Positions 806 through 18,646 of a stretch of DNA of 64,000 bases are shown here, one piece after another. Position numbers and translations under genes: made by a program. The notes under the pieces are model-generated. The model made no database searches. It was not told where the DNA came from and saw only the letters and a program-made list of their open reading frames with translations. How positions within the stretch are numbered: position 1 is the first letter of the stretch; each line of letters begins with the position of its first letter. The DNA is from Rhodoferax koreense (GTDB lineage Bacteria > Pseudomonadota > Gammaproteobacteria > Burkholderiales > Burkholderiaceae_C): NCBI RefSeq assembly GCF_001955695.1, contig NZ_CP019236.1:2604001-2668000 (forward strand), read 5' to 3'.

Positions 806-3800
806 ATGAAGATGAAGAATCTCCTGCATGGGATGAACAGCGCCGGGATTCGGCTGCTATGGCTATGGCTGGCCCTGACTGTTCAGGCGGCTCTGGCGGC
901 AACCTCGGTGACGAACACGGCCACCATCGCGCCGCCGGTGGGCGTCACGGATGTCATTGGGGGGTGCGACACGGCCGTCCCGCCGAACTGCACTGGCAAC
1001 AACACCTCGACCGTTACCGCCGCCGTCTGGTCCGCCACGCTCACGAAGTCCGCTTCGCCCGCTTCCGGCACCGTGATCCTGCCCGGTTCACTCGTCACCT
1101 ACACGCTGTCGGTCAACGTGACCGGTGCCGTCACCTCGAGCCCGGTGGTACTCACGGACACGCTGGGTACCGGCCTGTCGTTCGGCGCCATCACCGCCAA
1201 CGCCGGCGGCTTCACCGCCAACACCGCCAGCAACCCTTTGAGCTTTACCCTGCCTGCCGGCGCAGCGATCGGCATTCACACCATCCAGTACACGGCGCAG
1301 GTCGCGGCGAATGCGACTGGCAGCGTCGGCAATTCGGTGGTTGGCGCCGGCAACTGCACCGCCGCCGCGCCCTGCACCACGAGCCATCCCCTGGGCGCGT
1401 TGACGGTCGGCAAGCAGTTGACGGCGGAAAGCGGTAGCCAGACCGGCATCGCCGAGCCGGGCGAAACCCTGACCTACACCATCACCATCACCAATTCCAG
1501 CGGCACGGCCGTCAGCAACTACGCGCTGACAGACACCTTGGGCGCCGGGCTGACGTTTTCCAGCGCCACGCTCGGCGGCGTGCGCACGGGGCAGAATGTC
1601 AACTGGACGAATCTCAGCATCCCGGCGAACGGCTCCTTGCAGGTCACCGTGGTGGCAACGGTCGATTCGCCAATCGCCACGGCCAGCGTCCGCAACCTGG
1701 CCAAGCGCACCGGCGATCCGGACCCTGCCTGCGGCAGCGCGGCCTGCGTGGTGACGCCCACAGCGACCTCGGTGACGGTCGCGAAGACCTCCAATCCGGC
1801 CAGTGGCACCACGGTGATACCGGGCCAGACCATCACCTACACCTTGACCGCCACGGTCACGGGAGCCTCGACGACTTCCGCCAATGTGATCACCGACACA
1901 CTGGGTGCCGGCCAGACCTTTGGCAGCGTCGTTCCCGGGAGCATCTTCGCGCTCGGCGGGACGGGCAATGTGCGCACTTTCACCATGCCTGCCGGCACGG
2001 CCGCAGGCACGTATTCAGTGAGCTACACCGCAGCGGTCAATGCGGGCGCCGCCGCGGGTTCGGTCACCAATTCCGTGAGCGGGGTGCCATGCACGACGGC
2101 AGGAGGCTGCACCACCGATCACCCGGTGGGCGCGATCGGCATCACCAAGGCGCTGACGGGCGAGAGCGGCAGCCAGGCTGGCACGGCGGAGGCCGGCGAA
2201 CAGCTGAGCTACACCCTCACGCTGAGCAACCCGACGGCCACGGCGGTGAGCGGCTACGCTTTGACCGACACCCTGAGCGCCGGGCTGAGCTTCGTGAGCG
2301 CCAGCCTGGGCGGCGTGAACAGCGGGCAGAACGTCAACTGGAGCAACCTGACGATTCCCGCCAACGGCACGCTGCAGGTGACAGTGGTGGCGCTGGTCGG
2401 CCCGATTGGCAGCATCAACGTGAGCAACCTGGCCAAGCCCACGGGCGGCCCGGACCCGGCGTGCCCGAGCGCGGCCTGCGTGGTCACCCCGACCACCAGC
2501 ACGGTGACCGTGGCCAAGACCGCCAACACCGCCAGCGGCACGACCGTGATTCCCGGCCAGACCCTGACCTACACGCTGACGGCCACCGTCACCGGCGCCA
2601 ACACCACTGGGCCGACCGTGCTGACCGACACCATGAGCGCCGGCCAGACCTACGTCGGCGTGAGCAGCGCCGGCGGCTTCACCGTGGGCACGGTCAGCCC
2701 GCTGGTGCACACCTTCACCTTGCCGGCCAACACCCCGGCCGGCACCTATGCGGTGAGCTACACCGTGACGGTCAACGCCGGGGCGACCGGCGCGCTGGGC
2801 AACAGCGTGAGCGGCGTGCCCTGCAGCGCCGGGGGCGTGTGCACGACGACCCATCCCGTGGGCGCCATCGGCGTGGCCAAGGCGCTGGCGGCGGAAAGCG
2901 GCAGCCGCGCGGGCATCGCCGAGCCGGGCGAAACCCTGACCTACACCATCACGCTGAGCAACCCGGCGGCCGCGCCGGTGACGGGTTATGCGCTGACCGA
3001 CATCCTGAGCGCGGGGCTGAGCTACGTCAGCTCGACATCGGGTGGTGTCAATGCCGGGCAGACCACCAACTGGAGCGGCCTGACGATCCCGTCCAATGGC
3101 ACGCTGGCGATCATGGTGGTGGCCACGGTGAACACCCCGATCACGCTGGCCAGCGTGAGCAACCTGGCCAAGCAGACCGGCGACCCCGACCCGGGCTGCC
3201 CAAGCGTGGCCTGTGTGCAGACACCCACCGCCAGCACCGTGACGGTGGCCAAGAGTTCCTTCCCGGCCACCGGCACTCCCGCGATCGCGGGGCAGACCAT
3301 CACCTACACCATCATCGCCACGGTGACAGGCGGCAAGACGACCACACCGACGGTGTTCACCGACACCCTGGGCAGCGGGCAGACCTTCGGCAGCGTCACG
3401 GCCGCCGGCGTGTTCACGGTGGGGGGCTCGGGCAACACGCGCACCTTCACCCTGCCCAGCAACAGCATGGCCGGCACCTACTGGGTGAGCTACACCGCCA
3501 CGGTGAACGCCGGGGCGGTCAACGGCACCGTCAACAACAGCGTCACCGGCGCGCCTTGCACCACGGTGGGTGAGTGCACCACAGACCATCCGGTGGGCTC
3601 GATCGGCGTGGCCAAGGCACTGACCGGCGAGAGCGGCAGCCAGGCCGGCATCGCCGAGCCCAGCGAAACACTGACCTACACCATCACCCTGACCAATCCC
3701 ACCGGCGCACCGGTGACGAACTACGCATTGACCGATGTGCTCAGTGCCGGGCTGAGCTACGCGAGTTCGACGCCGGGCGGCGTGAACAGCGGGCAGACTA

Positions 3801-6800
3801 CAAGTTGGACCAATCTGACGATCCCCGCGAACAGTAGCCTGCAGGTCAAGGTGCTGGCCACGGTCAATACGCCGATCACGGTCGCCAGCATCCGTAACCT
3901 GGCCAAACCAACGGGCGACCCCGATCCGACTTGCCCAGGTGCGGCGTGTGTCGTCACACCGACGGCCAGCTCGGTCACGGTGGCCAAGACTTCCAGCCCG
4001 ACCAGCGGGACCCCGGTGCTGGCCGGCCAGGCGATCACCTATACGCTCACGGCCACGGTGTCTGGCGGCAATACCACCGCGCCCACGGTATTCACCGACA
4101 CGCTGGGCGGGGGACAGACGTTCGGGACCATCAGCCCCACCACCGATTTCACCTTTGGGGGAGCGGGTAACACCCGTACTTTCACCTTGCCCGCGGGCCA
4201 GCCGGCCGGTACCTATTCCGTGACCTACACGGCCACGGTGAACGCGGGTGCCAGCAGCTCGGTGAACAACGCCGTCACCGGTGTACCGTGTACGCCTGCG
4301 GCCAACTGCACCACCACACACCCGGTGGGCGCGATCGGCATCACCAAGGCGCTGACGGGCGAGAGCGGCAGCCAGGCTGGCACGGCGGAGGCCGGCGAAC
4401 AGCTGAGCTACACCCTCACGCTGAGCAACCCGACGGCCACGGCGGTAAGCGGCTACGCTTTGACCGACACCCTGAGCGCCGGGCTGAGCTTCGTGAGCGC
4501 CAGCCTGGGCGGCGTGAACAGCGGGCAGAACGTCAACTGGAGCAACCTGACGATTCCCGCCAACGGCACGCTGCAGGTGACGGTGGTGGCGCTGGTCGGC
4601 CCGATTGGCAGCATCAACGTGAGCAACCTGGCCAAGCCCACGGGCGGCCCGGACCCGGCGTGCCCGAGCGCGGCCTGCGTGGTCACCCCGACCACCAGCA
4701 CGGTGACCGTGGCCAAGACCGCCAACACCGCCAGCGGCACGACCGTGATTCCCGGCCAGACCCTGACCTACACGCTGACGGCCACCGTCACCGGCGCCAA
4801 CACCACTGGGCCGACCGTGCTGACCGACACCATGAGCGCCGGCCAGACCTACGTCGGCGTGAGCAGCGCCGGCGGCTTCACCGTGGGCACGGTCAGCCCG
4901 CTGGTGCACACCTTCACCTTGCCGGCCAACACCCCGGCCGGCACCTATGCGGTGAGCTACACCGTGACGGTCAACGCCGGGGCGACCGGCGCGCTGGGCA
5001 ACAGCGTGAGCGGCGTGCCCTGCAGCGCCGGGGGCGTGTGCACGACGACCCATCCCGTGGGCGCCATCGGCGTGGCCAAGGCGCTGGCGGCGGAAAGCGG
5101 CAGCCGCGCGGGCATCGCCGAGCCGGGCGAAACCCTGACCTACACCATCACGCTGAGCAACCCGGCGGCCGCGCCGGTGACGGGTTATGCGCTGACCGAC
5201 ATCCTGAGCGCGGGGCTGAGCTACGTCAGCTCGACATCGGGTGGTGTCAATGCCGGGCAGACCACCAGCTGGAGCGGCCTGACGATCCCGTCCAATGGCA
5301 CGCTGGCGATCACGGTGGTGGCCACGGTGAACACCCCGATCACGCTGGCCAGCGTGAGCAACCTGGCCAAGCAGACCGGCGACCCCGACCCCGGCTGCCC
5401 GAGCGTGGCCTGCGTGCAGACACCCACCGCCAGCACCGTGACGGTGGCCAAGGCCTCCAACCCGGCGACGGGGGCGACCGTGATCGCGGGGCAGACCATC
5501 ACCTACACCTTGACGGCCACGGTGACGGGCGGCAAGACGACCGCACCGACGGTGTTCACCGACACCCTGGGCAGCGGGCAGACCTTCGGCAGCGTCACGG
5601 CCGCCGGCGCGTTCACGGTGGGGGGCTCGGGCAATACGCGCACCTTCACATTGCCCAGCGACACCGTGGCCGGCACGTATGCGGTGAGCTACACCGCCAC
5701 GGTGAACGCCGGGGCGGTCAACGGCACGGTCAACAACAGCGTCACCGGCGCGCCTTGCACCACGGTGGGTGGATGCACCACGGACCATCCGGTGGGCTCG
5801 ATCGGCGTGGCCAAGGCACTGACCGGCGAGAGCGGCAGCCAGGCCGGCATTGCCGAGCCCGGCGAAACACTGACCTACACCATCACCCTGACCAATACCA
5901 CCGGCGCACCGGTGACGAACTACGCGTTGACCGATGTGCGAAGCCCGGGCCTCACCTATGTGAGCTCGAGCCCGACAGGGGCCAACGCCGGCCAGACCAC
6001 GAGTTGGACCGGGCTGACCATTCCGGCGAACGGTACGCTGCAACTGACGATCGTCTTCACCGTCAACTCGCCGATCACCACCGCCAACGTAAGCAACCTG
6101 GCCAAGCCCACGGGTGGCCCCGACCCTGCATGCCCCGGCGCGGCCTGCCCCGTCGTCCCGACCGTGAGTACGGTCACGGTGGCCAAGACTTCCAGTCCGC
6201 CCAACGGTTCGACCGTGATCCCCGGCCAGTCCCTCAGCTATACCTTGACCGTGACCGTCATCGGTGGCGATACAACTTCGCCGACCGTATTGACCGACAC
6301 CATGGGCAGCGGACAGACCTTCGGCAGCGTGGGTGCGAATGCCGGCTTCGGCTTCGCCACCATCAGCGCCCTGGTCCATACCTTCACCCTGCCGCAGGGC
6401 ACACCGGCGGGCACCTATTCGGTGACCTACACGACAACGGTGAATGCCGGGGCCACGACGGGCTCCGTGGACAACGCAGTGACCGGCGCGAACTGCGCCA
6501 CCATTGGAAGTTGCGCCACCGACCATCCTGTGGGCGCCATCACGGTGACCAAGGCGCTGACGGGCGAGAGCGGCAGCCAGGCTGGCACGGCGGAGGCCGG
6601 CGAACAGCTGAGCTACACCCTCACGCTGAGCAACCCGACGGCCACGGCGGTGAGCGGCTACGCTTTGACCGACACCCTGAGCGCCGGGCTGAGCTTCGTG
6701 AGCGCCAGCCTGGGCGGCGTGAACAGCGGGCAGAACGTCAACTGGAGCAACCTGACGATTCCCGCCAACGGCACGCTGCAGGTGACAGTGGTGGCGCTGG

Positions 6801-9800
6801 TCGGCCCGATTGGCAGCATCAACGTGAGCAACCTGGCCAAGCCCACGGGCGGCCCGGACCCGGCGTGCCCGAGCGCGGCCTGCGTGGTCACCCCGACCAC
6901 CAGCACGGTGACCGTGGCCAAGACCGCCAACACCGCCAGCGGCACGACCGTGATTCCCGGCCAGACCCTGACCTACACGCTGACGGCCACCGTCACCGGC
7001 GCCAACACCACTGGGCCGACCGTGCTGACCGACACCATGAGCGCCGGCCAGACCTACGTCGGCGTGAGCAGCGCCGGCGGCTTCACCGTGGGCACGGTCA
7101 GCCCGCTGGTGCACACCTTCACCTTGCCGGCCAACACCCCGGCCGGCACCTATGCGGTGAGCTACACCGTGACGGTCAACGCCGGGGCGACCGGCGCGCT
7201 GGGCAACAGCGTGAGCGGCGTGCCCTGCAGCGCCGGGGGCGTGTGCACGACGACCCATCCCGTGGGCGCCATCGGCGTGGCCAAGGCGCTGGCGGCGGAA
7301 AGCGGCAGCCGCGCGGGCATCGCCGAGCCGGGCGAAACCCTGACCTACACCATCACGCTGAGCAACCCGGCGGCCGCGCCGGTGACGGGTTATGCGCTGA
7401 CCGACATCCTGAGCGCGGGGCTGAGCTACGTCAGCTCGACATCGGGTGGTGTCAATGCCGGGCAGACCACCAACTGGAGCGGCCTGACGATCCCGTCCAA
7501 TGGCACGCTGGCGATCATGGTGGTGGCCACGGTGAACACCCCGATCACGCTGGCCAGCGTGAGCAACCTGGCCAAGCAGACCGGCGACCCCGACCCGGGC
7601 TGCCCAAGCGTGGCCTGTGTGCAGACACCCACCGCCAGCACCGTGACGGTGGCCAAGAGTTCCTTCCCGGCCACCGGCACTCCCGCGATCGCGGGGCAGA
7701 CCATCACCTACACCATCATCGCCACGGTGACAGGCGGCAAGACGACCACACCGACGGTGTTCACCGACACCCTGGGCAGCGGGCAGACCTTCGGCAGCGT
7801 CACGGCCGCCGGCGTGTTCACGGTGGGGGGCTCGGGCAACACGCGCACCTTCACCCTGCCCAGCAACAGCATGGCCGGCACCTACTGGGTGAGCTACACC
7901 GCCACGGTGAACGCCGGGGCGGTCAACGGCACCGTCAACAACAGCGTCACCGGCGCGCCTTGCACCACGGTGGGTGAGTGCACCACAGACCATCCGGTGG
8001 GCTCGATCGGCGTGGCCAAGGCGCTCACGGCGGAAAGCATCACCACGAATGGCATCGCCGAACCCGGCGAACTGCTGACCTACACCATCACACTGACAAA
8101 CCCCACGGGTGCCGCAGTCACCGGTTATGCGCTGACCGACAGGTTAAGCACAGGGTTGACCTATTCGAGCTCCACCCCGGTCGGCGCGAACAGTGGCCAG
8201 ACAACCGACTGGACGGGGCTGACGATTCCGGCCAACGGCAGCATCCAGCTCACCTTGGTGGCCACGGTGAACACACCGCTCACCACCGTCAATGTCAGCA
8301 ACCTGGCCAAGCCGGCGGGCGGCATCGACCCGGCCTGTCCGGGTGCGGGCTGCGTGGTGACGCCGACCAGCAGCGTCGTGACCGTGGCCAAGACCTCGAA
8401 TCCGGCCACAGGTGCGATCTTGGTTGCAGGGCAAACCGTGAGCTACACGCTGACGGTGACAGTCAGCGGAGCCAATACCGGTGCGGCGACCGTGCTGACC
8501 GATACGCTGGGCGGCGGCCAGACGTTCGGGAGCGTGACCAGTGTCGGTGCGTTCACGGTGGGCACGGTGAGCCCACTGGTCCACACTTTCACCTTGCCCG
8601 CGGGCCAGCCAGCCGGTACCTATTCCGTGACCTACACGGCCACGGTGAACGCGGGTGCCAGCGGCTCGGTGAATAACGCCGTCACCGGTGTACCGTGTAC
8701 GCCTGCGGCCAACTGCACCACCACGCACCCGGTGGGCGCGATCGGCATCACCAAGGCGCTGACGGGCGAGAGCGGCAGCCAGGCTGGCACGGCGGAGGCC
8801 GGCGAACAGCTGAGCTACACCCTCACGTTGAGCAACCCGACGGCCACGGCGGTAAGCGGCTACGCTTTGACCGACACCCTGAGCGCCGGGCTGAGCTTCG
8901 TGAGCGCCAGCCTGGGCGGCGTGAACAGCGGGCAGAACGTCAACTGGAGCAACCTGACGATTCCCGCCAACGGCACGCTGCAGGTGACGGTGGTGGCGCT
9001 GGTCGGCCCGATTGGCAGCATCAACGTGAGCAACCTGGCCAAGCCCACCGGCGGCCCGGACCCGGCGTGCCCGAGCGCGGCCTGCGTGGTCACCCCGACC
9101 ACCAGCACGGTGACCGTGGCCAAGACCGCCAACACCGCCAGCGGCACGACCGTGATTCCCGGCCAGACCCTGACCTACACGCTGACGGCCACCGTCACCG
9201 GCGCCAACACCACTGGGCCGACCGTGCTGACCGACACCATGAGCGCCGGCCAGACCTACGTCGGCGTGAGCAGCGCCGGCGGCTTCACCGTGGGCACGGT
9301 CAGCCCGCTGGTGCACACCTTCACCTTGCCGGCCAACACCCCGGCCGGCACCTATGCGGTGAGCTACACCGTGACGGTCAACGCCGGGGCGACCGGCGCG
9401 CTGGGCAACAGCGTGAGCGGCGTGCCCTGCAGCGCCGGGGGCGTGTGCACGACGACCCATCCCGTGGGCGCCATCGGCGTGGCCAAGGCGCTGGCGGCGG
9501 AAAGCGGCAGCCGCGCGGGCATCGCCGAGCCGGGCGAAACCCTGACCTACACCATCACGCTGAGCAACCCGGCGGCCGCGCCGGTGACGGGTTATGCGCT
9601 GACCGACATCCTGAGCGCGGGGCTGAGCTACGTCAGCTCGACATCGGGTGGTGTCAATGCCGGGCAGACCACCAGCTGGAGCGGCCTGACGATCCCGTCC
9701 AATGGCACGCTGGCGATCACGGTGGTGGCCACGGTGAACACCCCGATCACGCTGGCCAGCGTGAGCAACCTGGCCAAGCAGACCGGCGACCCCGACCCCG

Positions 9801-12800
9801 GCTGCCCAAGCGTGGCCTGTGCGCAGACACCCACCGCCAGCACGGTCACGATGAGCAAGACATCCAACCCGGTGAACGGCGTGACCGTCATCGCCGGCCA
9901 GACCCTCACCTATACCCTTTCGGTCAGGGTAAGCGGCGGTGACACCACGACCGCCACCGTGCTGACCGACACGCTGGGCAGCGGCCAGACTTTCGGCAGC
10001 CTCACGCCGGGCAGTCAGTTCGCCATGTCCGGCGCCGGCAACACTCGGACTTTCACCCTGCCTGCGGGTGTAGCGGCTGGCACCTATTCGGTGAGCTACA
10101 CAGCCTTGGTGAACGCGGGTGCGGTCACCGGCACGGTGAACAACGCCGTGACTTCCAGCAATGCCACATGTGAAACGGCCGGTGCTTGCGCCACCAATCA
10201 CCCCATCGGCGCCATCGGCCTCAACAAGGCGCTGACCGGTGAAAGCATCGCGCTCAACAACATTGCCCAGCCGGGTGAACAGCTGACCTACACCATCACC
10301 TTGACGAATCCGACGGGTATCGCGGTCACGGGCTATGCGCTGACGGACACCCTGAGCGCCGGGTTGACCTATGTGAGTTCCAGCCTGGGCGGCGTGAACA
10401 GCGGACAGAGCGTCAACTGGACCAACCTGAGCATTCCCGCCAATGGCCTGCTGCAGGTGACGGTGGTGGCCTTGGTAAACCCGATCGCCACCGCCTCGGT
10501 CAGCAACCTGGCCAAGCCAAGCGGCGCTCCCGATCCGAGCTGCCCGAGTGCTGCCTGCGTGGTGACGCCGACCATGACGACGGTGACCGTCGCCAAGAGT
10601 TCGAACCCGGCACCGGGCACGGTGGTGATTCCCGGCCAGACGATCACCTACACACTGACGGCCACGGTGATCGGGGCAGACACGGCGACGCCCACCGTGC
10701 TGACCGACACGCTTGGCAGCGGCCAGACCTTCGGCAGCATGACGCCCACGGCCAATTTCAGCTCGGGCGGCTCGGGCAATGTGCGGACCTTCACGCTGCT
10801 GGCGGGCAGGGCGGCGGGAACGTATTCCGTGACCTACACGGCCACCGTGAACGCGGGCGCGACCACGGGTCTGGTGAACAACGCGGTCAGCGGCGTGCCT
10901 TGCTCCGCAGTCGGCGCCTGCCAGACCGACCACCCGGTTGGCGCAGTGAGCGTGAACAAGGTGCTGACGGGCGAAAGCATCAACTCGAACGGGGTCGCCG
11001 AGGCGGGCGAGCTGCTGACCTACACCATCACGCTGGTCAATCCATCCACGGCGACGGTCACCGGGTACGCTTTGACCGACCGGCTCGGCACCGGGCTGAC
11101 CTATGTGAGCTCCACGCTCGGCGGGGTGAATGCCGGCCAGACGACCACCTGGGCATCGCTGACAGTTCCCGCAAACGGCACGCTCCAGGTCATCGTCGTG
11201 GCCAGGGTGAACGTCCCGATCGCCACCGCCGCCGTGAGCAACCTGGCCAAACCGACCGGCGGCGTCGACCCCGCCTGCCCGAGCAGCGGCTGCGTGGTGA
11301 TCCCGACGGCCAGCACCGTGAGCGTGGCCAAGGTGGCCAATCCGCCCAACGGCACGCCGGTGATTGCGGGCCAGACCATCACCTACACGCTGACCGCCAC
11401 GGTGAGTGGGTCGGCCACCGGCTCGCCCGTCGTGCTGACCGACACGCTCGGCAGCGGCCAGTCCTTCGGGTCGGTGATTCCTGGCAGCCCATTCGCAGCG
11501 GCCGGGGCGGGCAACGTGCGCACCTTCACCTTGCCGACGAATACGGTGGCTGGCAGCTACACCGTGAGCTACACGGCGACGGTCAACGCCGGCGCCGTCG
11601 CGGGAACGGTGAGCAACGTGGTGACCGGTGCGACCTGCACTTCCGGCGGCGTGTGTGCCACCGACCATCCCGTGGGCGCGATCAGCCTGGCCAAGGCGCT
11701 GACGGCGGAAAGCGGCAGCCAGGCCGGCATCGCCGAGCCCGGCGAAACCCTGACCTACACCATCACGTTGACCAACCCGACGCCGGCCCCGGTCACCGCC
11801 TACGCGCTGACCGATGCGTTGGGTGCCGGCCTGAGCTATGTGAGTTCCACGCTGGGCGGCGTCAATGCCGGCCAGACCACCAACTGGGCCGGCCTGACGA
11901 TCCCAGCCAGCGGCAGCCTGCAGGTGAACCTGTTGGCCAGGGTGAACGCCCCGATCACCACGGAAAGCGTGCGCAACATCGCCAAGTCGACGGGCAGCGC
12001 CGACCCAGCCTGTCCGAGTGCAGGCTGTGTCACGGTGCCCACCAGCAGCACGGTGACATTGACCAAGCTGTCCAACCCGGCCAGTGGCGCGACGGTGATG
12101 GCCGGCCAGACCATCACCTACACGCTGACAGCCACCGTCGTCGGCTCGCCGACCCCGGCGGCGACGGTGCTGACCGACACCATGGGCAGCGGGCAGACCT
12201 TCGGAGCGGTGACGTCCGCTGGCGTCTACAGCGCCGCGGGCACGGGCAACGCGCGCAGCTTCACGCTGCCGGCCGGCACGGTCGCCGGCACCTATTCCTT
12301 GACCTACACCGCGACCGTCAATGCCGCGGCGACCACCGGCACGGTGAACAACGTCGTGACGGGTGCGGCCTGCGCCGCGCCGGGGGCCTGCGCGACCGAC
12401 CATCCGGTGGGCGCGGTCACGCTGACCAAGGCGCTGACCGCGGAAAGCCTGGTCGCCGACGGCATCGCGCAGCCCGGTGAGCAACTGAGCTACACGATCA
12501 CGCTGGCCAATCCGAGCACCGTCGCGGTCACAGGCTACGCCCTGACCGACGTGTTGAGCCCGGGCTTGACCTATGTGAGTTCCACACCCGGCGGCGCCAA
12601 TGCCGGCCAGACGACGAATTGGCCTGCGCTCACGATTCCCGCGAACGGCACGCTGCAGGTATCGGTGGTGGCCAAGGTCGATACGACGCTTGCCGTGGCC
12701 AGCATCCACAACGTCGCCAAGCCCACCGGCGCGGAAGATCCGGCTTGCCCGAGCGCCGCCTGCGTGGTCAATCCGACGGCGGCCGATGTCAAGCCGAGCA

Positions 12801-14914
12801 AGCAACTCACGGCCGAGAGTGGAAGCCGGCCCGGCGTGGCCGAACCCGGGGAGCGCCTGACGTACACCATCACCCTGGCCAATGCTGGCGGCGCACCCTG
12901 GAACAACTACCGGTTCACTGAGAACGTGCCGGCCGGCGCCACCATGACGGGTGTGACCGGCGCCTCCGGCTTAAGTGGCCCGATCACCGGTCCGGGCGCG
13001 GTCAACCTGACAGTGCCGCAGGTGCCCGGCGGTGGCGCCGCGACGGTGACCGTCATGTTCGTCGTCGCGGACAGCCTGCCCAGCGGCATGACCGTGTTAC
13101 CCAACCTGATCAATGGCGGCGACATCGATCCGACCTGCGTGAGCGCCTGTACCGTCTCGGTGCGCGTGGAAGAGCAGCCCCAGGTCAGCATCGTCAAGAC
13201 CGCTGCGGTGCGCGAAGCCAGGATCGGGGATCTGGTGCGCTACACGCTGACGATCACCAACACCGGCACGGTGGACATGGTCAACGGCCGCGTGATCGAC
13301 ACGCCGCCCGCGGGCTTCAGCTACGTGGCCGGCTCCGCGGCCGTGGCGGACGGCGACGGTGCGTTCACGCTGGGCGCGGGCGCGTCGCCACTGCAGTTCG
13401 GCGGCATCGACATCGCCGCCGGCAAACAGGCTGTCATCACCTACCTGTTGAGGGTGGGCGCGGGTGTGCGCCAGGGAAGCTACGCCAACCACGCCAACGC
13501 CGTCAACACGATCGGTCGGGCGATCTCCAACGTGGCAAGTGCCGAAGTGCAGGTCGTGGCGGATCCGATGGTCGATGAGTCCCTGATCTTGGGCACCGTC
13601 TTCAATGACCTGGACGGCGACGGCTGGCAAGATACGGCCAGCCTGAGCGGCGTGCGGGTGCAGGGCGGCTTCGAGCCGGGTGTCTACGTGCCAGGCTCGA
13701 CCCGCATCGACCGCGGCCATGGTGCCCAGCCAGAGCCCGATGCCAGCGCTCCGATGCTGCACGGCATCGACCTGGGTTCGATCTCCGCGCGGCAGTCCGA
13801 AGCCGATCCGGCCGAGAACCACCGCGTGGTCATCCGCCAGCAACTCACGGCGCTCGCGTTCACCGGCGACTTCGTGCTCACCAGCAAGGAGGGCGTGACG
13901 GTGCGCATGGACGCCGCCGGCCGTACCACGGTGGAGAAGACCGGCGATGCGGCCGAGGGACTGAACGGCGCCGCGCCCACGGTCGAACGTCGGGTGTCGC
14001 TGACCGAAAGCGGTTATGTCGTCGAGTACGTGATCACCAACACCGGCATCGAGGAACGCGGCATTCCCGGCGTGCGAATCGCATCCGTCGAGGGCGTGCT
14101 GATCGAGACGGACCAGTATGGGCGTTACAACCTCACGGGCGTGTCCGGCGGCGATTGGAACCGTGGCCGCAACTTCATCCTGAAGGTCGATCCGAACACG
14201 CTACCCGCCGGGGCCGAGTTCACCACGGCGAATCCCTTGGTGCGTCGTATCACGCCCGGGCTGCCGGTGCGGTTCGACTACGGCGTGAGGTTGCCGCAGG
14301 AACAGCTCAAAGGCGTCAAACAGGTCGCGATCGAACTCGGCGAGGTCATCTTCGCGCCTGGCAGTAGCGAAGTGCGCAAGGCTTATCTGCCGGCCATCGA
14401 AAAGATGGCCGCCAGGATCAATGAGTACGAGGGCGGCGAAGTGCTGATCCGTGCCAACGGCGAGAGCCAGGTGCTGGCATTGGGTCGCGCCCAAGCGGTG
14501 CAGGACGCGCTGCAGAGCCTGGTGTCGCCGAAGGCGGCGAAGGCGCTGCGGATCACTGCCCGCACCGAACTCACGGATCCGCAGTCATTGGTAGTGGGCG
14601 TGCAACAGCAGCGCTTAATGCTCGGCTCGGTGTTGTTCGACACCGCCAAATGGGCGATCCGGCCGGAATTCGAGCCCATGCTGCAGGAGGTTGCGCAGAC
14701 CCTCGCGAAACGCGAAGGAGGGGTCGTGACCCTGGTCGGCCATGCGGACGTTCGAGGGACCGATGCCTACAACCTCGATCTCGGCATGTGCCGTGCCAAG
14801 GCGGTGCTCGACGCGATTCTCCCGCACCTACCACCCTCCCTGCGCGCCAAGGTGCGTGTCGAACCGCCACGTGATGCGCCGCCGCCGGCTTCAGGCCGTC
14901 TGGTGTGCCGGTAG
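806..14914 (+). CDS. Giant DUF11/Ig-like repeat surface protein with C-terminal OmpA domain
   Basis: An uninterrupted frame of about 4,700 codons. I prefer the ATG at 806, giving MKMKNLL, because the partner gene also begins MKMK; ATGs at 776 and 800 and a TTG at 728 are alternatives, and none has a strong RBS. A Sec signal peptide follows (hydrophobic LLWLWLALTV, then QAALA). The body is about 34 tandem DUF11-type beta-sandwich domains of about 120 residues. Two kinds alternate: one starting near VTVAKTSNPASG, the other near KALTGESGSQAG. Domain ends carry Cys pairs (CPSAAC, C-x5-C). Four almost identical blocks recur about 734 residues apart. After the repeats come a last DUF11 domain, an SdrD-B-like stretch (VFNDLDGDGWQD, about residue 4265) and an OmpA-like peptidoglycan-binding domain in the last 200 residues (SVLFDTAKWAIRPE, VGHADVRGTDAYN). 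It is probably an envelope-anchored fibre or adhesin working with the barrel encoded 12 bp downstream. Domain assignments are firm; function is inferred. Confidence 0.85.
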   Translation: MKMKNLLHGMNSAGIRLLWLWLALTVQAALAATSVTNTATIAPPVGVTDVIGGCDTAVPPNCTGNNTSTVTAAVWSATLTKSASPASGTVILPGSLVTYTLSVNVTGAVTSSPVVLTDTLGTGLSFGAITANAGGFTANTASNPLSFTLPAGAAIGIHTIQYTAQVAANATGSVGNSVVGAGNCTAAAPCTTSHPLGALTVGKQLTAESGSQTGIAEPGETLTYTITITNSSGTAVSNYALTDTLGAGLTFSSATLGGVRTGQNVNWTNLSIPANGSLQVTVVATVDSPIATASVRNLAKRTGDPDPACGSAACVVTPTATSVTVAKTSNPASGTTVIPGQTITYTLTATVTGASTTSANVITDTLGAGQTFGSVVPGSIFALGGTGNVRTFTMPAGTAAGTYSVSYTAAVNAGAAAGSVTNSVSGVPCTTAGGCTTDHPVGAIGITKALTGESGSQAGTAEAGEQLSYTLTLSNPTATAVSGYALTDTLSAGLSFVSASLGGVNSGQNVNWSNLTIPANGTLQVTVVALVGPIGSINVSNLAKPTGGPDPACPSAACVVTPTTSTVTVAKTANTASGTTVIPGQTLTYTLTATVTGANTTGPTVLTDTMSAGQTYVGVSSAGGFTVGTVSPLVHTFTLPANTPAGTYAVSYTVTVNAGATGALGNSVSGVPCSAGGVCTTTHPVGAIGVAKALAAESGSRAGIAEPGETLTYTITLSNPAAAPVTGYALTDILSAGLSYVSSTSGGVNAGQTTNWSGLTIPSNGTLAIMVVATVNTPITLASVSNLAKQTGDPDPGCPSVACVQTPTASTVTVAKSSFPATGTPAIAGQTITYTIIATVTGGKTTTPTVFTDTLGSGQTFGSVTAAGVFTVGGSGNTRTFTLPSNSMAGTYWVSYTATVNAGAVNGTVNNSVTGAPCTTVGECTTDHPVGSIGVAKALTGESGSQAGIAEPSETLTYTITLTNPTGAPVTNYALTDVLSAGLSYASSTPGGVNSGQTTSWTNLTIPANSSLQVKVLATVNTPITVASIRNLAKPTGDPDPTCPGAACVVTPTASSVTVAKTSSPTSGTPVLAGQAITYTLTATVSGGNTTAPTVFTDTLGGGQTFGTISPTTDFTFGGAGNTRTFTLPAGQPAGTYSVTYTATVNAGASSSVNNAVTGVPCTPAANCTTTHPVGAIGITKALTGESGSQAGTAEAGEQLSYTLTLSNPTATAVSGYALTDTLSAGLSFVSASLGGVNSGQNVNWSNLTIPANGTLQVTVVALVGPIGSINVSNLAKPTGGPDPACPSAACVVTPTTSTVTVAKTANTASGTTVIPGQTLTYTLTATVTGANTTGPTVLTDTMSAGQTYVGVSSAGGFTVGTVSPLVHTFTLPANTPAGTYAVSYTVTVNAGATGALGNSVSGVPCSAGGVCTTTHPVGAIGVAKALAAESGSRAGIAEPGETLTYTITLSNPAAAPVTGYALTDILSAGLSYVSSTSGGVNAGQTTSWSGLTIPSNGTLAITVVATVNTPITLASVSNLAKQTGDPDPGCPSVACVQTPTASTVTVAKASNPATGATVIAGQTITYTLTATVTGGKTTAPTVFTDTLGSGQTFGSVTAAGAFTVGGSGNTRTFTLPSDTVAGTYAVSYTATVNAGAVNGTVNNSVTGAPCTTVGGCTTDHPVGSIGVAKALTGESGSQAGIAEPGETLTYTITLTNTTGAPVTNYALTDVRSPGLTYVSSSPTGANAGQTTSWTGLTIPANGTLQLTIVFTVNSPITTANVSNLAKPTGGPDPACPGAACPVVPTVSTVTVAKTSSPPNGSTVIPGQSLSYTLTVTVIGGDTTSPTVLTDTMGSGQTFGSVGANAGFGFATISALVHTFTLPQGTPAGTYSVTYTTTVNAGATTGSVDNAVTGANCATIGSCATDHPVGAITVTKALTGESGSQAGTAEAGEQLSYTLTLSNPTATAVSGYALTDTLSAGLSFVSASLGGVNSGQNVNWSNLTIPANGTLQVTVVALVGPIGSINVSNLAKPTGGPDPACPSAACVVTPTTSTVTVAKTANTASGTTVIPGQTLTYTLTATVTGANTTGPTVLTDTMSAGQTYVGVSSAGGFTVGTVSPLVHTFTLPANTPAGTYAVSYTVTVNAGATGALGNSVSGVPCSAGGVCTTTHPVGAIGVAKALAAESGSRAGIAEPGETLTYTITLSNPAAAPVTGYALTDILSAGLSYVSSTSGGVNAGQTTNWSGLTIPSNGTLAIMVVATVNTPITLASVSNLAKQTGDPDPGCPSVACVQTPTASTVTVAKSSFPATGTPAIAGQTITYTIIATVTGGKTTTPTVFTDTLGSGQTFGSVTAAGVFTVGGSGNTRTFTLPSNSMAGTYWVSYTATVNAGAVNGTVNNSVTGAPCTTVGECTTDHPVGSIGVAKALTAESITTNGIAEPGELLTYTITLTNPTGAAVTGYALTDRLSTGLTYSSSTPVGANSGQTTDWTGLTIPANGSIQLTLVATVNTPLTTVNVSNLAKPAGGIDPACPGAGCVVTPTSSVVTVAKTSNPATGAILVAGQTVSYTLTVTVSGANTGAATVLTDTLGGGQTFGSVTSVGAFTVGTVSPLVHTFTLPAGQPAGTYSVTYTATVNAGASGSVNNAVTGVPCTPAANCTTTHPVGAIGITKALTGESGSQAGTAEAGEQLSYTLTLSNPTATAVSGYALTDTLSAGLSFVSASLGGVNSGQNVNWSNLTIPANGTLQVTVVALVGPIGSINVSNLAKPTGGPDPACPSAACVVTPTTSTVTVAKTANTASGTTVIPGQTLTYTLTATVTGANTTGPTVLTDTMSAGQTYVGVSSAGGFTVGTVSPLVHTFTLPANTPAGTYAVSYTVTVNAGATGALGNSVSGVPCSAGGVCTTTHPVGAIGVAKALAAESGSRAGIAEPGETLTYTITLSNPAAAPVTGYALTDILSAGLSYVSSTSGGVNAGQTTSWSGLTIPSNGTLAITVVATVNTPITLASVSNLAKQTGDPDPGCPSVACAQTPTASTVTMSKTSNPVNGVTVIAGQTLTYTLSVRVSGGDTTTATVLTDTLGSGQTFGSLTPGSQFAMSGAGNTRTFTLPAGVAAGTYSVSYTALVNAGAVTGTVNNAVTSSNATCETAGACATNHPIGAIGLNKALTGESIALNNIAQPGEQLTYTITLTNPTGIAVTGYALTDTLSAGLTYVSSSLGGVNSGQSVNWTNLSIPANGLLQVTVVALVNPIATASVSNLAKPSGAPDPSCPSAACVVTPTMTTVTVAKSSNPAPGTVVIPGQTITYTLTATVIGADTATPTVLTDTLGSGQTFGSMTPTANFSSGGSGNVRTFTLLAGRAAGTYSVTYTATVNAGATTGLVNNAVSGVPCSAVGACQTDHPVGAVSVNKVLTGESINSNGVAEAGELLTYTITLVNPSTATVTGYALTDRLGTGLTYVSSTLGGVNAGQTTTWASLTVPANGTLQVIVVARVNVPIATAAVSNLAKPTGGVDPACPSSGCVVIPTASTVSVAKVANPPNGTPVIAGQTITYTLTATVSGSATGSPVVLTDTLGSGQSFGSVIPGSPFAAAGAGNVRTFTLPTNTVAGSYTVSYTATVNAGAVAGTVSNVVTGATCTSGGVCATDHPVGAISLAKALTAESGSQAGIAEPGETLTYTITLTNPTPAPVTAYALTDALGAGLSYVSSTLGGVNAGQTTNWAGLTIPASGSLQVNLLARVNAPITTESVRNIAKSTGSADPACPSAGCVTVPTSSTVTLTKLSNPASGATVMAGQTITYTLTATVVGSPTPAATVLTDTMGSGQTFGAVTSAGVYSAAGTGNARSFTLPAGTVAGTYSLTYTATVNAAATTGTVNNVVTGAACAAPGACATDHPVGAVTLTKALTAESLVADGIAQPGEQLSYTITLANPSTVAVTGYALTDVLSPGLTYVSSTPGGANAGQTTNWPALTIPANGTLQVSVVAKVDTTLAVASIHNVAKPTGAEDPACPSAACVVNPTAADVKPSKQLTAESGSRPGVAEPGERLTYTITLANAGGAPWNNYRFTENVPAGATMTGVTGASGLSGPITGPGAVNLTVPQVPGGGAATVTVMFVVADSLPSGMTVLPNLINGGDIDPTCVSACTVSVRVEEQPQVSIVKTAAVREARIGDLVRYTLTITNTGTVDMVNGRVIDTPPAGFSYVAGSAAVADGDGAFTLGAGASPLQFGGIDIAAGKQAVITYLLRVGAGVRQGSYANHANAVNTIGRAISNVASAEVQVVADPMVDESLILGTVFNDLDGDGWQDTASLSGVRVQGGFEPGVYVPGSTRIDRGHGAQPEPDASAPMLHGIDLGSISARQSEADPAENHRVVIRQQLTALAFTGDFVLTSKEGVTVRMDAAGRTTVEKTGDAAEGLNGAAPTVERRVSLTESGYVVEYVITNTGIEERGIPGVRIASVEGVLIETDQYGRYNLTGVSGGDWNRGRNFILKVDPNTLPAGAEFTTANPLVRRITPGLPVRFDYGVRLPQEQLKGVKQVAIELGEVIFAPGSSEVRKAYLPAIEKMAARINEYEGGEVLIRANGESQVLALGRAQAVQDALQSLVSPKAAKALRITARTELTDPQSLVVGVQQQRLMLGSVLFDTAKWAIRPEFEPMLQEVAQTLAKREGGVVTLVGHADVRGTDAYNLDLGMCRAKAVLDAILPHLPPSLRAKVRVEPPRDAPPPASGRLVCR
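2145..3618 (+). repeat. Higher-order repeat copy 1 in the giant gene (matches copy 3)
   Basis: A 1,474-bp in-frame block encoding about four DUF11 domains. It appears identical by eye to 6549-8022 (offset 4,404 bp). It diverges on the 5' side at the ACCAAGG junction and on the 3' side after GCCAAGGC. Its first 1.1 kb is also shared, with scattered differences, by copies 2 and 4. Confidence 0.85.
4178..5436 (+). repeat. Higher-order repeat copy 2 in the giant gene (matches copy 4)
   Basis: This 1,259-bp block aligns to 8585-9843 at a constant offset of 4,407 bp with only a few base differences. The match begins upstream of the block shared by all four copies and ends at the CGCCAGCAC junction. 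The period between successive copies is about 2.2 kb. Confidence 0.8.
6549..8022 (+). repeat. Higher-order repeat copy 3 in the giant gene (matches copy 1)
   Basis: Second occurrence of the 1,474-bp block of 2145-3618. The translated segments (for example SSFPATGTPAIAG and SNSMAGTYWVSY) are the same in both and absent from copies 2 and 4. This indicates a duplication or gene conversion more recent than the divergence of the other modules. Confidence 0.85.
8585..9843 (+). repeat. Higher-order repeat copy 4 in the giant gene (matches copy 2)
   Basis: Same block as 4178-5436 with small differences (for example CCAGCC for CCGGCC near its start and GCCAGCGG for GCCAGCAG). Downstream of this copy the DUF11 modules are more diverged and have no near-identical partner. 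Confidence 0.8.
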
Positions 14915-14926
14915 CGGGAGTCCAGC

Positions 14927-17900
14927 ATGAAAATGAAAATCCTCGACTACGCGCTGCTCACCCTGTTCTCGAGCGCCTCACCACTGGCCTGGGCTCAGCA
15001 GACCACTACCCCCGCAGTGCCCGCCGTGCCCGTGGCCGATGCCGCAGCCGGGGCACCCGAATGCAGCGCCACCGACTGCCGCAGCGGCGAAGACCTGTTG
15101 TTCCAGCTGCAGACCCACGGCGAGCGGGACCCGGCGACGCATGGCACGAGCGAACGTTCGGGTTCGAAGGCCCTCGAGCCCGACCGACGGGTGAGCATCG
15201 AGGCCGGCGCGGCCCCTCCCGCCCAGCAACCGGGCGTCGCGACGGCCACGGGCAAGTTCTCGCTCCAGTTGCCCAATGGCGGCATCGTCTGGGCCACCGA
15301 GGATCCGACCCTGGGCGTGGCAGAACTCAGCGTGTCCGGCCCCTCGCAGGTGGCTTTCGAGAACGGGCGCATCATCGCGCCAGTGCAGTTCTTCCTGCGC
15401 AGCAACTATCCTGGGTTTATCCAGCGCATCGAACTCGGCATCTACCGCGCCACTGACACGGATCTCACCGAGCCGCTGGCCAGCATGCCGATGCCGGTGG
15501 CGGGCGTGAGCCGTGCCGACTGGAACGGTGTGATGGCCCCGCGTTTTCCGCTACGCGCGGGGGATGACCTGATCTATATCGTGCGTGCCTACGGCGCCGA
15601 TGGGGCCTTCGACGAGACCATGCCGCGCACGCTGTCGCTGGTGCGCCGCGAGGAGGCCGAACGCGGCGCCAGCCTGACGCGCGACCAGGTCGAGAAGACA
15701 CTCGGCACCGCAATGACGACCCAACAGGCCGAGACCCAGAGCCTGCTGAGCAACGTCTTCAGCGGCAACGGACTGCGCCGGCAGAACATCCCGATCTACG
15801 GTTCGCGCATCCGCATCCAGGGACGCAATCTGCCGCTGGACCACAACCTGCAGATCAACGGGCAGGACTACCCGGTGGATCTGGACCGCAAGTTCGTCGC
15901 CGAATTCCTCGAGCCGGTCGGGTCGCACAGCTACGACCTGGTACTGAAGGACGGCAACAGCCAGACCGTGCTCACGCACACCATGCGTGTCGAGGTCAGC
16001 GGCAACTACTTCTTCGGCGTGGCCATGGCCGACCTGACGGTGTTCCAGAACAAGGCCACCGGGCCGGGCATGGGACTGGCGCTCAATGGCCGTACCGACA
16101 GCCTGCTCGTCGACGGCCGGCTCGCCTTCTACGGCAAGACCAAGATCGACGGCAAATACCTGGTGACGGCCCAGGCCGATACCCAGGAACGCGACATCCG
16201 CGACCTGTTCAGCGGCTTCACCCATGCCGATCCCACCGACGTGTTCCGCCGCCTCGATCCCAACCAGTACTACCCGGTCTATGGCGACGATTCGACGACC
16301 TACCGCGATGTCGATACCCAGGGCCGTTTCTACCTGCGTGTGGATTGGGACAAGAACCAGGCACTATGGGGCAACTTCGCCACCGGCTTCACCGGCACGC
16401 AGTACGCGCAATACGTGCGCTCGCTGTATGGTGCCGCGGTCAATTGGCGTGCCCGCGAGACCAATCCCTGGGGCGAGACCAAGGCTTTCGTGCGGGCCTT
16501 CGCATCGGAGGCGCGAACCGCGCCCGGCCATAGCGAGTTCATCGGCACCGGCGGCAGCCTCTACTACCTGCGCCACACCGATGTCCTGCCGGGCTCGGAC
16601 ATCGTCACGCTCGAGGTCCGCAACCCGACGACGGGCAACGTCGAAAGCCGGAGCACGCTGGTGCGCGGCACCGACTACACCATCAACGAGACGCAGGGCC
16701 GTATCCTGCTGACCAAGGCGTTGGCGCAGGTGGCGGGCGACAGCAACGCCATCACGCGCGACACGCCGCTGGCCGGCAACGAACAACGCCTGCTGGTCGA
16801 TTACGAATGGATACCGAGCGGCTTCGATGCGGGCAACCTCACGGCAGGCGCGCGCGGCAAGCAATGGGTCACCGACCACGTGGCGATCGGGGGCACCGTC
16901 GTCAACGAGAAACAGTCCGGCGACAACTACACCCTCAGAGGCGTCGACCTCACGCTGCAGGCCGGACGCGGCACTTTCCTGAAGCTCGAACACACCGAAA
17001 CCGAGTCCACGGGCGCGCCAGTCTTCTTCTCGAGCAACGGCGGCCTGAGCTTCACGCAGACCAATGCCACTACCGGGCACCGCGCCGGTAGCGCCGACGC
17101 GCTCGACGCGCAGGCCAATCTGAAGGAAATGGGCTGGACCGATCGCAACTGGACGCTCAGCGGCTGGCGCCGGCGGGTCGATGCCGGCTATTCCGTGGCC
17201 CGCAACGACACCGGCCAGGACCTGCGCGAAACCGGCCTGACCGTGCGCGGCGAGGTGTCCGACACGCTGTCGATCTATGCCCTGGCCAGCCGGGTCGAAC
17301 GCGGCGCGGAGTCGCTCGATCAGGCCCAGTTCACCGCGCAATGGCGTCCGACCGATGACGACACGGTGAGCGCCGAAATCCGCCGGATCACGCAAAACCT
17401 CGCCACGGGCGATGTGAACGGCACGCTGGGTGCTGCCAAATACACGCGCCGCGTGTCACCCAACCTCGACGTCTACGGCATCGCGCAGAAAACGCTGGAC
17501 AACGACGATGGGCGCTATCCCGACAACGATGCCTATACCGTCGGCGCGAAGTACCGCTTCGCCAACCTGTCCAGCGTCGGTGCCGAAACCACGCATGGCG
17601 ACCGCGGCAATTCGACGCAGGTCAACGCCGAATACAGGCTCTCGGCGGACCACACCGTTTACGGCACCTTCACCGCCAGCAGCGACGGCACCGAATACGA
17701 CTCGGTGTTCAACCCGCGGCAGCAGGGGGGCTGGACCTTGGGTCAACGCTGGCGGCTCACCGACAAGACCAACCTCTTCAACGAAAGCCAATACCTGAAG
17801 GATCCGAACACCGGCAAGGGGCTCGCCAACACCTTCGGCATGGATTTCTATCCCGCCGTGGGCTGGAACTTCGGCTTCACGTTGCAGCAGGGCGAACTCA

Positions 17901-18646
17901 CCAGCAGTCAGGGCGACGTGCACCGCCGCGCCGTCAGCGTGACCGGTGGGCACACCACGCCGCAGACGACCTGGTCGAGCAAAGCCGAGTGGCGGCGCGA
18001 CACTGGGGCTGAGCAACGCACCCAATGGGTGCTGGCCAACCGGATCGACCACAAGGTCAACGAAAGTTGGCGGGTGTCGGGCAAGCTCAACCATTCCGAC
18101 ACCGACGACAAGCTGAACGCCGCAGCGGGGGCCAGGTACACCGAAGCCGTGGCCGGCTTCGCCTGGCGGCCGTTGGACGCGACGCGTTATGCCCTGTTGG
18201 GGCGCTACACCCATCTCTATGACCTGGCCAGCCTGGGTCAGGTGAATCAGGTGGGTTCCGAATACGACCAGAAGTCCGACATCGTCTCGATCGAGGGCAT
18301 CTACAAGTACGACCGCCAGTGGGAGTTTGCCGCCAAGCTGGCCCGGCGCGAGGGTTCGGCCCGTTTCGGCCGTGGCACCGGGCAGTGGTTCGATTCGGCC
18401 ACCACCTATGCCGGCTTCCAGACCCGCTACGAATTACCGGACAAGTGGCACGGCCTGGTCGAGTTCCGCACCTTGGCCGTGAAGCAGGGAGGCGCGCGCC
18501 ATGGTTGGCTGGCCGGCATCGACCGAGACATCACGAAGAATCTGCGCGTGGGCATCGGCTACAACTTCACCAGCTTCAGTGACGATCTCACCAAGCTCGG
18601 CTACACCTACAAGGGGTTCTTCCTGAACATCGTCGGCTACTACTGA
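14927..18646 (+). CDS. Large predicted outer-membrane beta-barrel protein, partner of the giant repeat protein
   Basis: 1,239 residues. The start ATG has a GGGAG Shine-Dalgarno 6 nt away, and the gene begins 12 bp after the giant gene, so the two are almost certainly co-transcribed. A Sec signal peptide ends near PLAWA-QQ. Residues about 30-350 form a soluble, probably periplasmic, region with beta-sandwich-like segments (for example IYGSRIRIQGRNLPLD). From about residue 355 (NYFFGVAMADLTVF) to the end the sequence has alternating aromatic/polar beta-strands with short turns, as in outer-membrane barrels, and it ends in an aromatic residue (NIVGYY), the usual OMP assembly signal. No TonB box or plug domain is recognised. 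I infer that it is a barrel serving or exporting the giant protein; it could instead be an independent porin-like protein. Topology is well supported, role is not. Confidence 0.75.
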   Translation: MKMKILDYALLTLFSSASPLAWAQQTTTPAVPAVPVADAAAGAPECSATDCRSGEDLLFQLQTHGERDPATHGTSERSGSKALEPDRRVSIEAGAAPPAQQPGVATATGKFSLQLPNGGIVWATEDPTLGVAELSVSGPSQVAFENGRIIAPVQFFLRSNYPGFIQRIELGIYRATDTDLTEPLASMPMPVAGVSRADWNGVMAPRFPLRAGDDLIYIVRAYGADGAFDETMPRTLSLVRREEAERGASLTRDQVEKTLGTAMTTQQAETQSLLSNVFSGNGLRRQNIPIYGSRIRIQGRNLPLDHNLQINGQDYPVDLDRKFVAEFLEPVGSHSYDLVLKDGNSQTVLTHTMRVEVSGNYFFGVAMADLTVFQNKATGPGMGLALNGRTDSLLVDGRLAFYGKTKIDGKYLVTAQADTQERDIRDLFSGFTHADPTDVFRRLDPNQYYPVYGDDSTTYRDVDTQGRFYLRVDWDKNQALWGNFATGFTGTQYAQYVRSLYGAAVNWRARETNPWGETKAFVRAFASEARTAPGHSEFIGTGGSLYYLRHTDVLPGSDIVTLEVRNPTTGNVESRSTLVRGTDYTINETQGRILLTKALAQVAGDSNAITRDTPLAGNEQRLLVDYEWIPSGFDAGNLTAGARGKQWVTDHVAIGGTVVNEKQSGDNYTLRGVDLTLQAGRGTFLKLEHTETESTGAPVFFSSNGGLSFTQTNATTGHRAGSADALDAQANLKEMGWTDRNWTLSGWRRRVDAGYSVARNDTGQDLRETGLTVRGEVSDTLSIYALASRVERGAESLDQAQFTAQWRPTDDDTVSAEIRRITQNLATGDVNGTLGAAKYTRRVSPNLDVYGIAQKTLDNDDGRYPDNDAYTVGAKYRFANLSSVGAETTHGDRGNSTQVNAEYRLSADHTVYGTFTASSDGTEYDSVFNPRQQGGWTLGQRWRLTDKTNLFNESQYLKDPNTGKGLANTFGMDFYPAVGWNFGFTLQQGELTSSQGDVHRRAVSVTGGHTTPQTTWSSKAEWRRDTGAEQRTQWVLANRIDHKVNESWRVSGKLNHSDTDDKLNAAAGARYTEAVAGFAWRPLDATRYALLGRYTHLYDLASLGQVNQVGSEYDQKSDIVSIEGIYKYDRQWEFAAKLARREGSARFGRGTGQWFDSATTYAGFQTRYELPDKWHGLVEFRTLAVKQGGARHGWLAGIDRDITKNLRVGIGYNFTSFSDDLTKLGYTYKGFFLNIVGYY

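Follow-up and report, generated by a model that had tools for sequence, protein, structure and literature searches.

A giant DUF11 fibre gene and a predicted very large outer-membrane barrel gene form a conserved unit in Rhodoferax koreense and relatives

The closest described relative of the locus presented here is B9T28_05395 from Acinetobacter silvestris ANC 4999, a putative fibrillar adhesin of 2,129 amino acids (aa) with a CshA_NR2-like domain, a DUF11 stalk and an OmpA-like anchor (PMC12617251). A DUF11 domain of this protein has been solved (9IFR), and its isopeptide bond, a disulfide and the stabilising effect of the isopeptide bond were shown (PMC12617251). OmpA anchors and DUF11 stalks occur in proteobacterial proteins with CshA-type domains (PMC10952558). 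How isopeptide-locked stalks cross the outer membrane is an open question in Gram-negative bacteria. Here we analyse a stretch of 64,000 nucleotides from Rhodoferax koreense (contig NZ_CP019236.1, positions 2,604,001 to 2,668,000; the window, G000:C1:2604001-2668000), in which a giant fibre gene of this type is followed, after a 12-bp spacer and likewise on the + strand, by a gene for a predicted outer-membrane barrel. The two genes are a real, conserved and widespread unit, and their pairing is not due to chance. On balance, we favour the interpretation that they encode a modular surface-fibre display complex, in which a locked DUF11 stalk is combined with an OmpA anchor that binds peptidoglycan and with an outer-membrane barrel of very large size.

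The gene of B9T28_05395 is very probably part of one of our loci. In L084, the locus from the same A. silvestris strain, the partner is 2,129 aa long and has K715, N806 and C818-T-T-C821 as printed for B9T28_05395; the catalytic D748 in print is the neighbouring D749 in our translation. Its SdrD-OmpA end is 53% identical to the window fibre over 392 aa, and a barrel homologue with 53% identity lies directly behind the fibre gene. The protein differs from the window fibre by its N-terminal CshA_NR2-like adhesive domain and by a length less than half as great (PMC12617251). A word search of the main text of PMC12617251 for barrel, operon, outer membrane and secret- gave no match, and publications that describe the barrel partner or the three-part unit are absent from the matches listed, which cover open-licence PubMed Central only. 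An earlier, sequence-only reading of the window had proposed a candidate new surface-display system. As far as searched, this novelty is confined to the giant barrel partner and the shuffling architecture, whereas the fibre half is already in print for the homologue (PMC12617251) and complexes of surface protein, barrel and wall anchor are known.

Pairing and fusion of fibre and barrel genes

The fibre and barrel genes were followed in two samples. The first consists of 80 named loci, the best-scoring among 112 relatives in a scan of genome contigs, a set that favours near kin. A Hydrogenophaga (L034) and a Variovorax (L035) are among the bacteria with the pair. At 78 of these 80 loci a gene with the fibre-end (SdrD-OmpA) module lies directly upstream of the barrel gene, and its stop codon is found -47 to +26 bp from the equivalent of the first Met of the window barrel. 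Partners were recognised through this end module, not through DUF11. The order is reversed at L068 (9938-21637), with the barrel gene first and the fibre-end gene directly behind it, and at L041 the contig begins 71 bp before the barrel match, so that any upstream partner would be cut off. Among the loci of distant relatives, fibre domains are adjacent or fused in 15 of 16, with none recognised at L128. In a search of relatives, 16 of 60 genomes were positive, R. koreense included; from it, a barrel fragment on a 5.6-kb contig (G001) and a 205-aa frame (G026:C72) were left out of the context analysis.

The second sample covers a class that we take to be the window's own, Gammaproteobacteria in the sense of GTDB. 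The barrel is present in 41 of 274 genomes (E 1e-10) and the fibre-end module in 24 (E 1e-5), the own genome being counted in both. Each of the 24 is also one of the 41, for which the hypergeometric P is 8e-24 if kinship is left uncorrected. From 48 places examined, ten that are cut were set aside; fragments in G070, G254, G185:C29 and G327:C35 were left out as well. Fibre domains accompany the barrel at 37 of the 38 uncut loci, in the same frame at 23 and adjacent at 14 (one weakly). Only L182 departs from this, with a frame of 608 aa on a contig of 6.7 kb. OmpA is found at 31 of the 38, in the same frame at 25 and in a neighbouring frame at six. Among 7,995 candidates scored, 1,417 were barrel homologues, and the barrel is single-copy in its own genome.

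The sequence-only reading had described a fibre gene encoding a signal peptide, about 34 DUF11 domains, an SdrD-like segment and a C-terminal OmpA domain, followed 12 bp later by a 1,239-residue barrel. This layout is borne out by the open reading frames (ORFs), Pfam and AlphaFold. It had further placed the parts on two proteins with the anchor at the C-terminus of the fibre, and had suggested surveying whether both genes always co-occur. The genes indeed behave as a unit, and the barrel is hardly ever found without the fibre (79 of the 80 named loci if the downstream partner is included).

The three parts split or fuse, yet their order is retained in most cases. The window has its gene break behind OmpA. 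At L166, L168 and L171-L173 the break precedes OmpA, and the barrel gene opens with OmpA stretches, between one and three in number (Pfam E 8e-15 to 6e-28). No break is present at L174 and L176-L178, where a single chain runs from Ig-type domains (DUF11 or others) through SdrD and OmpA to the barrel. In G171 a single 11,758-aa frame has 41 DUF11 matches, SdrD, OmpA and the barrel, ordered as in the two genes of the window; by eye, its first start codon is not followed by a clear signal peptide. This frame and that of L163 keep a signal-peptide-like segment at the junction between fibre and barrel. They therefore resemble fusions of recent origin and may undergo cleavage at the junction. The other 30 of the 32 one-chain frames, some of them contig-cut, have no junction signal peptide by eye. 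OmpA can also be a separate downstream gene (Pfam OmpA in seven of nine genes tested) or be fused behind the barrel, as in P0160. Fibre, anchor and barrel are thus found fused to one another in every pairwise combination.

In a tree of 75 barrel cores, the distribution of one and two chains needs at least five changes, and the window architecture (17 rows) forms one side of a branch with a Shimodaira-Hasegawa-like approximate likelihood ratio (SH-aLRT) support of 100. Tree labels were set by hand for L033 and L106 (wrong long frames), L129 (an OmpA frame that overlaps the barrel end) and the window, and four rows are unlabelled. The long barrel frames of L037, L047, L056, L062, L101 and L106 are wrong-frame extensions. 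In L033 (2541-9104, a Variovorax metagenome-assembled genome) the barrel frame extends to 2,188 aa, past the barrel end, perhaps through stop loss, a frameshift or a genuine extension. Separate DUF11 proteins with 1 to 12 matches follow the one-chain barrels of L124, L178, L181, L200 and L201, and that of L130 at 737 bp; they are possibly extra cargo or subunits.

Domains and repeats of the fibre protein

The features of both genes are collected in the table below. For ORF 728-14914 the ATG at 806 is a sensible start; the stop codon is TAG at 14912-14914.

Table. Coordinates of the fibre and barrel genes and their features within the window.
Feature	Position	Strand	Remarks
Giant fibre gene	806..14914	+	4,702 aa if started at ATG 806; frame opens at TTG 728
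Sec signal peptide of fibre	806..901	+	By eye; cut after ...VQAALA
DUF11/CLIPPER array	1067..13507	+	33 domains placed individually; Pfam: 34 stretches
Block of ~2.2 kb (~six domains), about four copies	2120..9807	+	Repeats exact at DNA level over as much as 1,475 bp
SdrD-like domain	13565..14284	+	Family alignment; ~140-aa insert, absent from some relatives; fibre-end module of the co-occurrence survey
First, degenerate OmpA-like domain	14324..14560	+	Alignment; borders approximate
Canonical OmpA domain	14633..14818	+	Pfam E 3.9e-8, residues 4636-4697 (TTG frame)
Intergenic spacer	14915..14926	+	12 bp; GGGAG (ribosome-site-like) 5' of barrel ATG
Outer-membrane barrel partner gene	14927..18646	+	1,239 aa; start codon ATG 14927
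Barrel signal peptide	14927..14998	+	Cut site by eye; consensus MKMKxLDxALxxLLAG...
Soluble N-terminal region	14999..15919	+	Beta domains and two helices; AlphaFold model, residue 105 onward
Predicted giant transmembrane barrel	15920..18643	+	45 strands of >=8 residues, 34 of >=10, from model residue 228
Conserved core	15965..16918	+	Motif DYxIDxxxGRILF...YE; holds weak SprA match

The isopeptide positions are kept throughout the array: across the 33 aligned DUF11 domains, K and N are present in 33 of 33, and the acidic position is D in 32 and E in one. Paired cysteines are present as well. Together with the tandem stalk and the C-terminal OmpA domain, this triad assigns the fibre, as judged from its sequence, to the DUF11/CLIPPER-stalk type of putative fibrillar adhesin. 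Exact repeats inside the gene are spaced by ~2.2 and 4.4 kb and are likely a source of length change via recombination. Among the loci, the fibre varies in length from 822 aa (L057) to the 4,702 aa of the window.

At the C-terminal end, the window fibre has no Pfam SdrD_B match, and the SdrD-like segment was recognised via the family alignment and via SdrD_B matches in one-chain relatives. The degenerate OmpA-like domain has an invariant R in all 58 aligned rows and lacks the GHxD motif. This domain and the repeated block are additions to the sequence-only reading. The canonical OmpA domain is present in 56 rows, of which 54 keep D and all 56 keep R (D4674 and R4689 of the window in the TTG frame). 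We take these two to be the peptidoglycan-binding residues, and the domain is expected to bind peptidoglycan. The fibre ends of L094 and L096 (Stenotrophomonas) hold the degenerate domain only and lack the canonical one. The alignments comprise subsets of 84 (A1), 58 (A3, the window and 57 of 77 eligible rows), 90 (A4), 33 (A5) and 74 rows (A6, the window and 73 of 78), and of 26 of 29 rows taken from every second row of A3 (A7).

The first 650 aa of the window fibre contain no adhesive Pfam family at E 1e-4. A scan of 55 N-termini, those of the window and of 54 from the 57 complete partners, detected the adhesin domain CshA_NR2 in eight. These N-termini bear on the possibility that the fibre stays in the periplasm and follows the wall, where it would be a strap or scaffold connecting the outer membrane, through the barrel, to peptidoglycan, through OmpA. 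OmpA and the barrel are both envelope tethers, and many one-chain relatives have few DUF11 matches, as such a strap would allow. The sequence-only reading had considered about 34 domains far too long to remain extended in the periplasm; this is sound for the radial direction, but lengthwise a fibre of this size could lie along the cell. Against a strap stand the CshA_NR2 domains of the eight N-termini, the isopeptide locking and strongly variable length, which would be expected of exposed stalks, and the interpretation of the homologue as a putative fibrillar adhesin (PMC12617251). We regard a purely periplasmic strap as improbable.

In the same genome, a second stretch (L113, C1:1575000-1594900) encodes three more DUF11 proteins of ~1,055-1,117 aa (frames 4569-7733, 8107-11457 and 13010-16330), two of which have a nearly identical C-terminal end. 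Neither a barrel homologue nor a fibre-end match was found in these 19.9 kb. Around the fibre and barrel genes, ten frames were scanned with Pfam. Upstream, the match is to a DnaJ domain in one frame; on the downstream side the genes with matches are of the FGE-sulfatase/DinB, methyltransferase, dioxygenase and polyphosphate-kinase types. No export gene is among the ten. At 19572-21868, an FGE-sulfatase/DinB_2 gene is followed by a histidine-specific methyltransferase gene, an arrangement that resembles the ergothioneine EgtB/EgtD pair. Promoter and terminator signals at 300-1000 are not above chance in a simple sigma-70 and terminator scan.

Predicted structure of the barrel and its resemblance to SprA

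An AlphaFold2 model of residues 105-1239 of the window barrel, built with 84 sequences, has a mean predicted local distance difference test (pLDDT) score of 80.7 and a predicted template modelling (pTM) score of 0.72. It is soluble up to about residue 331 and then forms 45 strands of at least 8, 38 of at least 9 or 34 of at least 10 residues. A distant homologue with 21% identity (P0123), modelled from a separate alignment, reached a pLDDT of 73.6 and a pTM of 0.68 with 38 strands of at least 8 residues. Many porins align to this second model from the first barrel strand (196-200) through the last (1081), and its barrel is thus consistent with closure. Both models predict a barrel rather than a soluble fold, as had been surmised from the sequence. 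In the window protein the barrel is preceded by the soluble N-terminal region, and the chain ends in an aromatic residue. The N-terminal region is expected to be periplasmic on the basis of the model. The signal peptide consensus MKMKxLDxALxxLLAG is kept across homologues of 50-60% identity. According to the standard barrel formula, 36-40 strands correspond to a backbone diameter of 64-71 Å, compared with 23 Å for 12 and 45 Å for 24 strands. The partner is predicted to be a very large outer-membrane barrel of about 34-45 strands, with a general likeness to other large barrels.

By sequence, the barrel matches no family over cut-off in Pfam, NCBIfam or PADLOC. An NCBIfam phage-tail match at E 0.003 reaches 17 of 60 bits and was taken as noise. 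Pfam searches with 33 core segments gave single-member matches only, at E 0.008 or worse. Against PDB sequences, the full-length barrel sequence matched two chains at E 0.022 and 0.82, neither of them useful, and the full-length barrel profile matched nothing at E 1.

Two profiles of the conserved core, however, have SprA as their best PDB sequence match, at E 0.0079 and 0.004. The match consists of a main patch at SprA 709-778 and weak patches. The value of 0.004 is weaker than its face value, because several profiles of one family were tried. In Foldseek, SprA is the top match of the window model (E 1.6e-8). The barrel may accordingly be a true remote relative of SprA, the translocon of the type IX secretion system (T9SS), and the pair a minimal SprA-like secretion system outside Bacteroidota. 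The full-length profile, as mentioned above, does not bear this out, and for the second model chains of the deinoxanthin complex (SlpA) and the Mtr complex stand above SprA, which is 18th. VIA-align ranks FimD first for both models. Because of these two rankings we rate SprA homology lower than the top Foldseek match of the window model alone would suggest. The Pfam family SprA_N (PF14349) has no match in the own genome or in any of the 20 genomes that include it (E 10), and 14 controls are equally silent. We consider SprA ancestry doubtful. It would be a special case of the complex of fibre, barrel and anchor and does not exclude it.

Export, anchoring and comparison with known systems

The display complex could assemble as follows. 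Sec would export the fibre and barrel proteins, both of which have a signal peptide by eye. In the periplasm, the DUF11 domains would fold and lock via lysine-asparagine isopeptide bonds and probably disulfides, since the triad and the paired cysteines are seen and both bonds are present in the crystal of the homologue. The barrel would be inserted in the outer membrane with its N-terminal domains, as predicted, in the periplasm. The SdrD-OmpA end of the fibre may dock on these domains while OmpA grips the wall; this is suggested by the order kept in the fusions and by the conserved residues. The fibre would then be external with its N-terminus outermost, most likely threaded through the barrel, because isopeptide-locked domains cannot fully unfold for a narrow pore and the predicted barrel is wide. 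At the surface, a location to which the CshA_NR2 domains of eight N-termini point, it might serve as an adhesin or spacer.

The single parts of this proposal are not equally secure. It is very likely that fibre and barrel form one complex, and likely that the fibre lies outside the cell. That the barrel is the exit of the fibre is an evenly balanced proposition; it is probably exit and collar. A further reading, less likely than not, is a widespread class of outer-membrane secretion or display in the window's class of bacteria: a single giant barrel of SprA-like size, possibly with SprA-like ancestry, would export the folded, isopeptide-locked fibre with the N-terminus first and without a motor, and the C-terminal OmpA domain would keep the fibre plugged and anchored to the wall.

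The barrel might instead be a docking collar only, like PorP or SprF for type B cargo of the T9SS. The fibre would exit otherwise and would then be held by the barrel and OmpA. Such a logic is followed by PorE-PorP-PG1035 and SprB-SprF, T9SS complexes of a surface protein and an outer-membrane barrel (PMC9143113). Likewise, in AtaA-TpgA the anchor of a fibre is strengthened from the periplasmic side (PMC13082670). The pairing of the genes and their fusions are equally compatible with a collar. PorP-like barrels, however, have 14 strands, far below the number predicted here (PMC9143113). The ten neighbouring frames scanned moreover offer no export gene, and the N-terminal part of the fused chains would require a second exporter. 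A barrel acting as collar alone is unlikely in our view.

Several observations weigh against the display complex or limit it. OmpA is missing in or beside the barrel frame at 7 of the 38 uncut class loci in a profile search, the downstream genes of L126 and L130 (two of the nine tested) have no Pfam OmpA, and L094 and L096 account for two of 58 aligned fibre ends without the canonical domain. Judged from these sequences, the unit can do without a wall anchor. In many one-chain relatives there are one or two DUF11 matches only, so that a long external fibre is not needed. The strand numbers are DSSP counts on predicted models and vary with the length cut-off (34 to 45 for the first model). Finally, whole-fold Foldseek matches to known barrels are poor, with template modelling (TM) scores of 0.08-0.23 normalised to query length and root mean square deviations mostly above 20 Å.

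Families of known export routes were searched in both proteins. In agreement with the sequence-only reading, none of the type I secretion, two-partner (POTRA/FhaC) and autotransporter families in Pfam and NCBIfam is over cut-off. A YadA_anchor match at E 0.084 has 13.4 bits against a cut-off of 22.7 and was taken as noise. The C-terminal signal families of RTX proteins and type I secretion gave no match in the two proteins in Pfam or NCBIfam. On the fibre, 19 NCBIfam families at E 0.1 include no model of a T9SS C-terminal signal, a kind of model that we assume the NCBIfam library to contain. The usher sequence family together with a chaperone gene, which would characterise a chaperone-usher system of the FimD type, was not found. 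For the inverse-autotransporter barrel family there is no Pfam match at E 0.1, and one-chain relatives have their barrel at the C-terminus. Intimin and invasin are inverse autotransporters, in which the barrel is N-terminal to the Ig passenger in one chain. In the window this order is reversed, with the fibre N-terminal and the barrel C-terminal, the parts are divided over two chains, and the predicted barrel is far larger. The BAP-type adhesins of Acinetobacter were set aside, as the excerpts of PMC4647330 considered revealed no link to the fibre and barrel pair.

With the display complex, one conserved unit, present in 41 of 274 class genomes, would join a stalk and a wall anchor to a barrel that ranks with the largest predicted, and there is a chance that this unit is a new export class. 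Among two-gene systems, TraA-TraB of Myxococcus is similar in that a repeat-region protein and a partner with an OmpA domain are encoded in an overlapping operon (PMC3325183). TraA differs by its PA14 domain, Cys-rich repeats and MYXO-CTERM, and its function is outer-membrane exchange (PMC3325183). AtaA-TpgA of Acinetobacter Tol 5 is alike in having a long fibre with a membrane anchor that a peptidoglycan-binding partner holds in the periplasm, but AtaA is a trimeric autotransporter, a separate protein binds the wall and a giant barrel is not part of the described system (PMC13082670). The OmpA end of P0160 reaches 66 of 350 bits with the TpgA model, which is under cut-off.

Closer in composition is PorE-PorP-PG1035, with a surface protein, an outer-membrane barrel and an OmpA-type wall binder, PorE, in which a carboxypeptidase-regulatory-like fold is joined with OmpA (PMC9143113). 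PorP and SprF differ by their 14-strand barrel and by their dependence on SprA/Sov (PMC9143113). The SprA translocon itself resembles the predicted barrel of the window as a very large single-chain barrel, with 36 strands (PMC10994853). SprA, however, is 2,403 residues long. It has a lateral opening, PorV or Plug as partners and transport driven by the proton motive force (PMC10994853), whereas the window barrel has a dedicated fibre partner. If the link to SprA were true, the locus would represent a T9SS-type barrel outside Bacteroidota with its own dedicated cargo.

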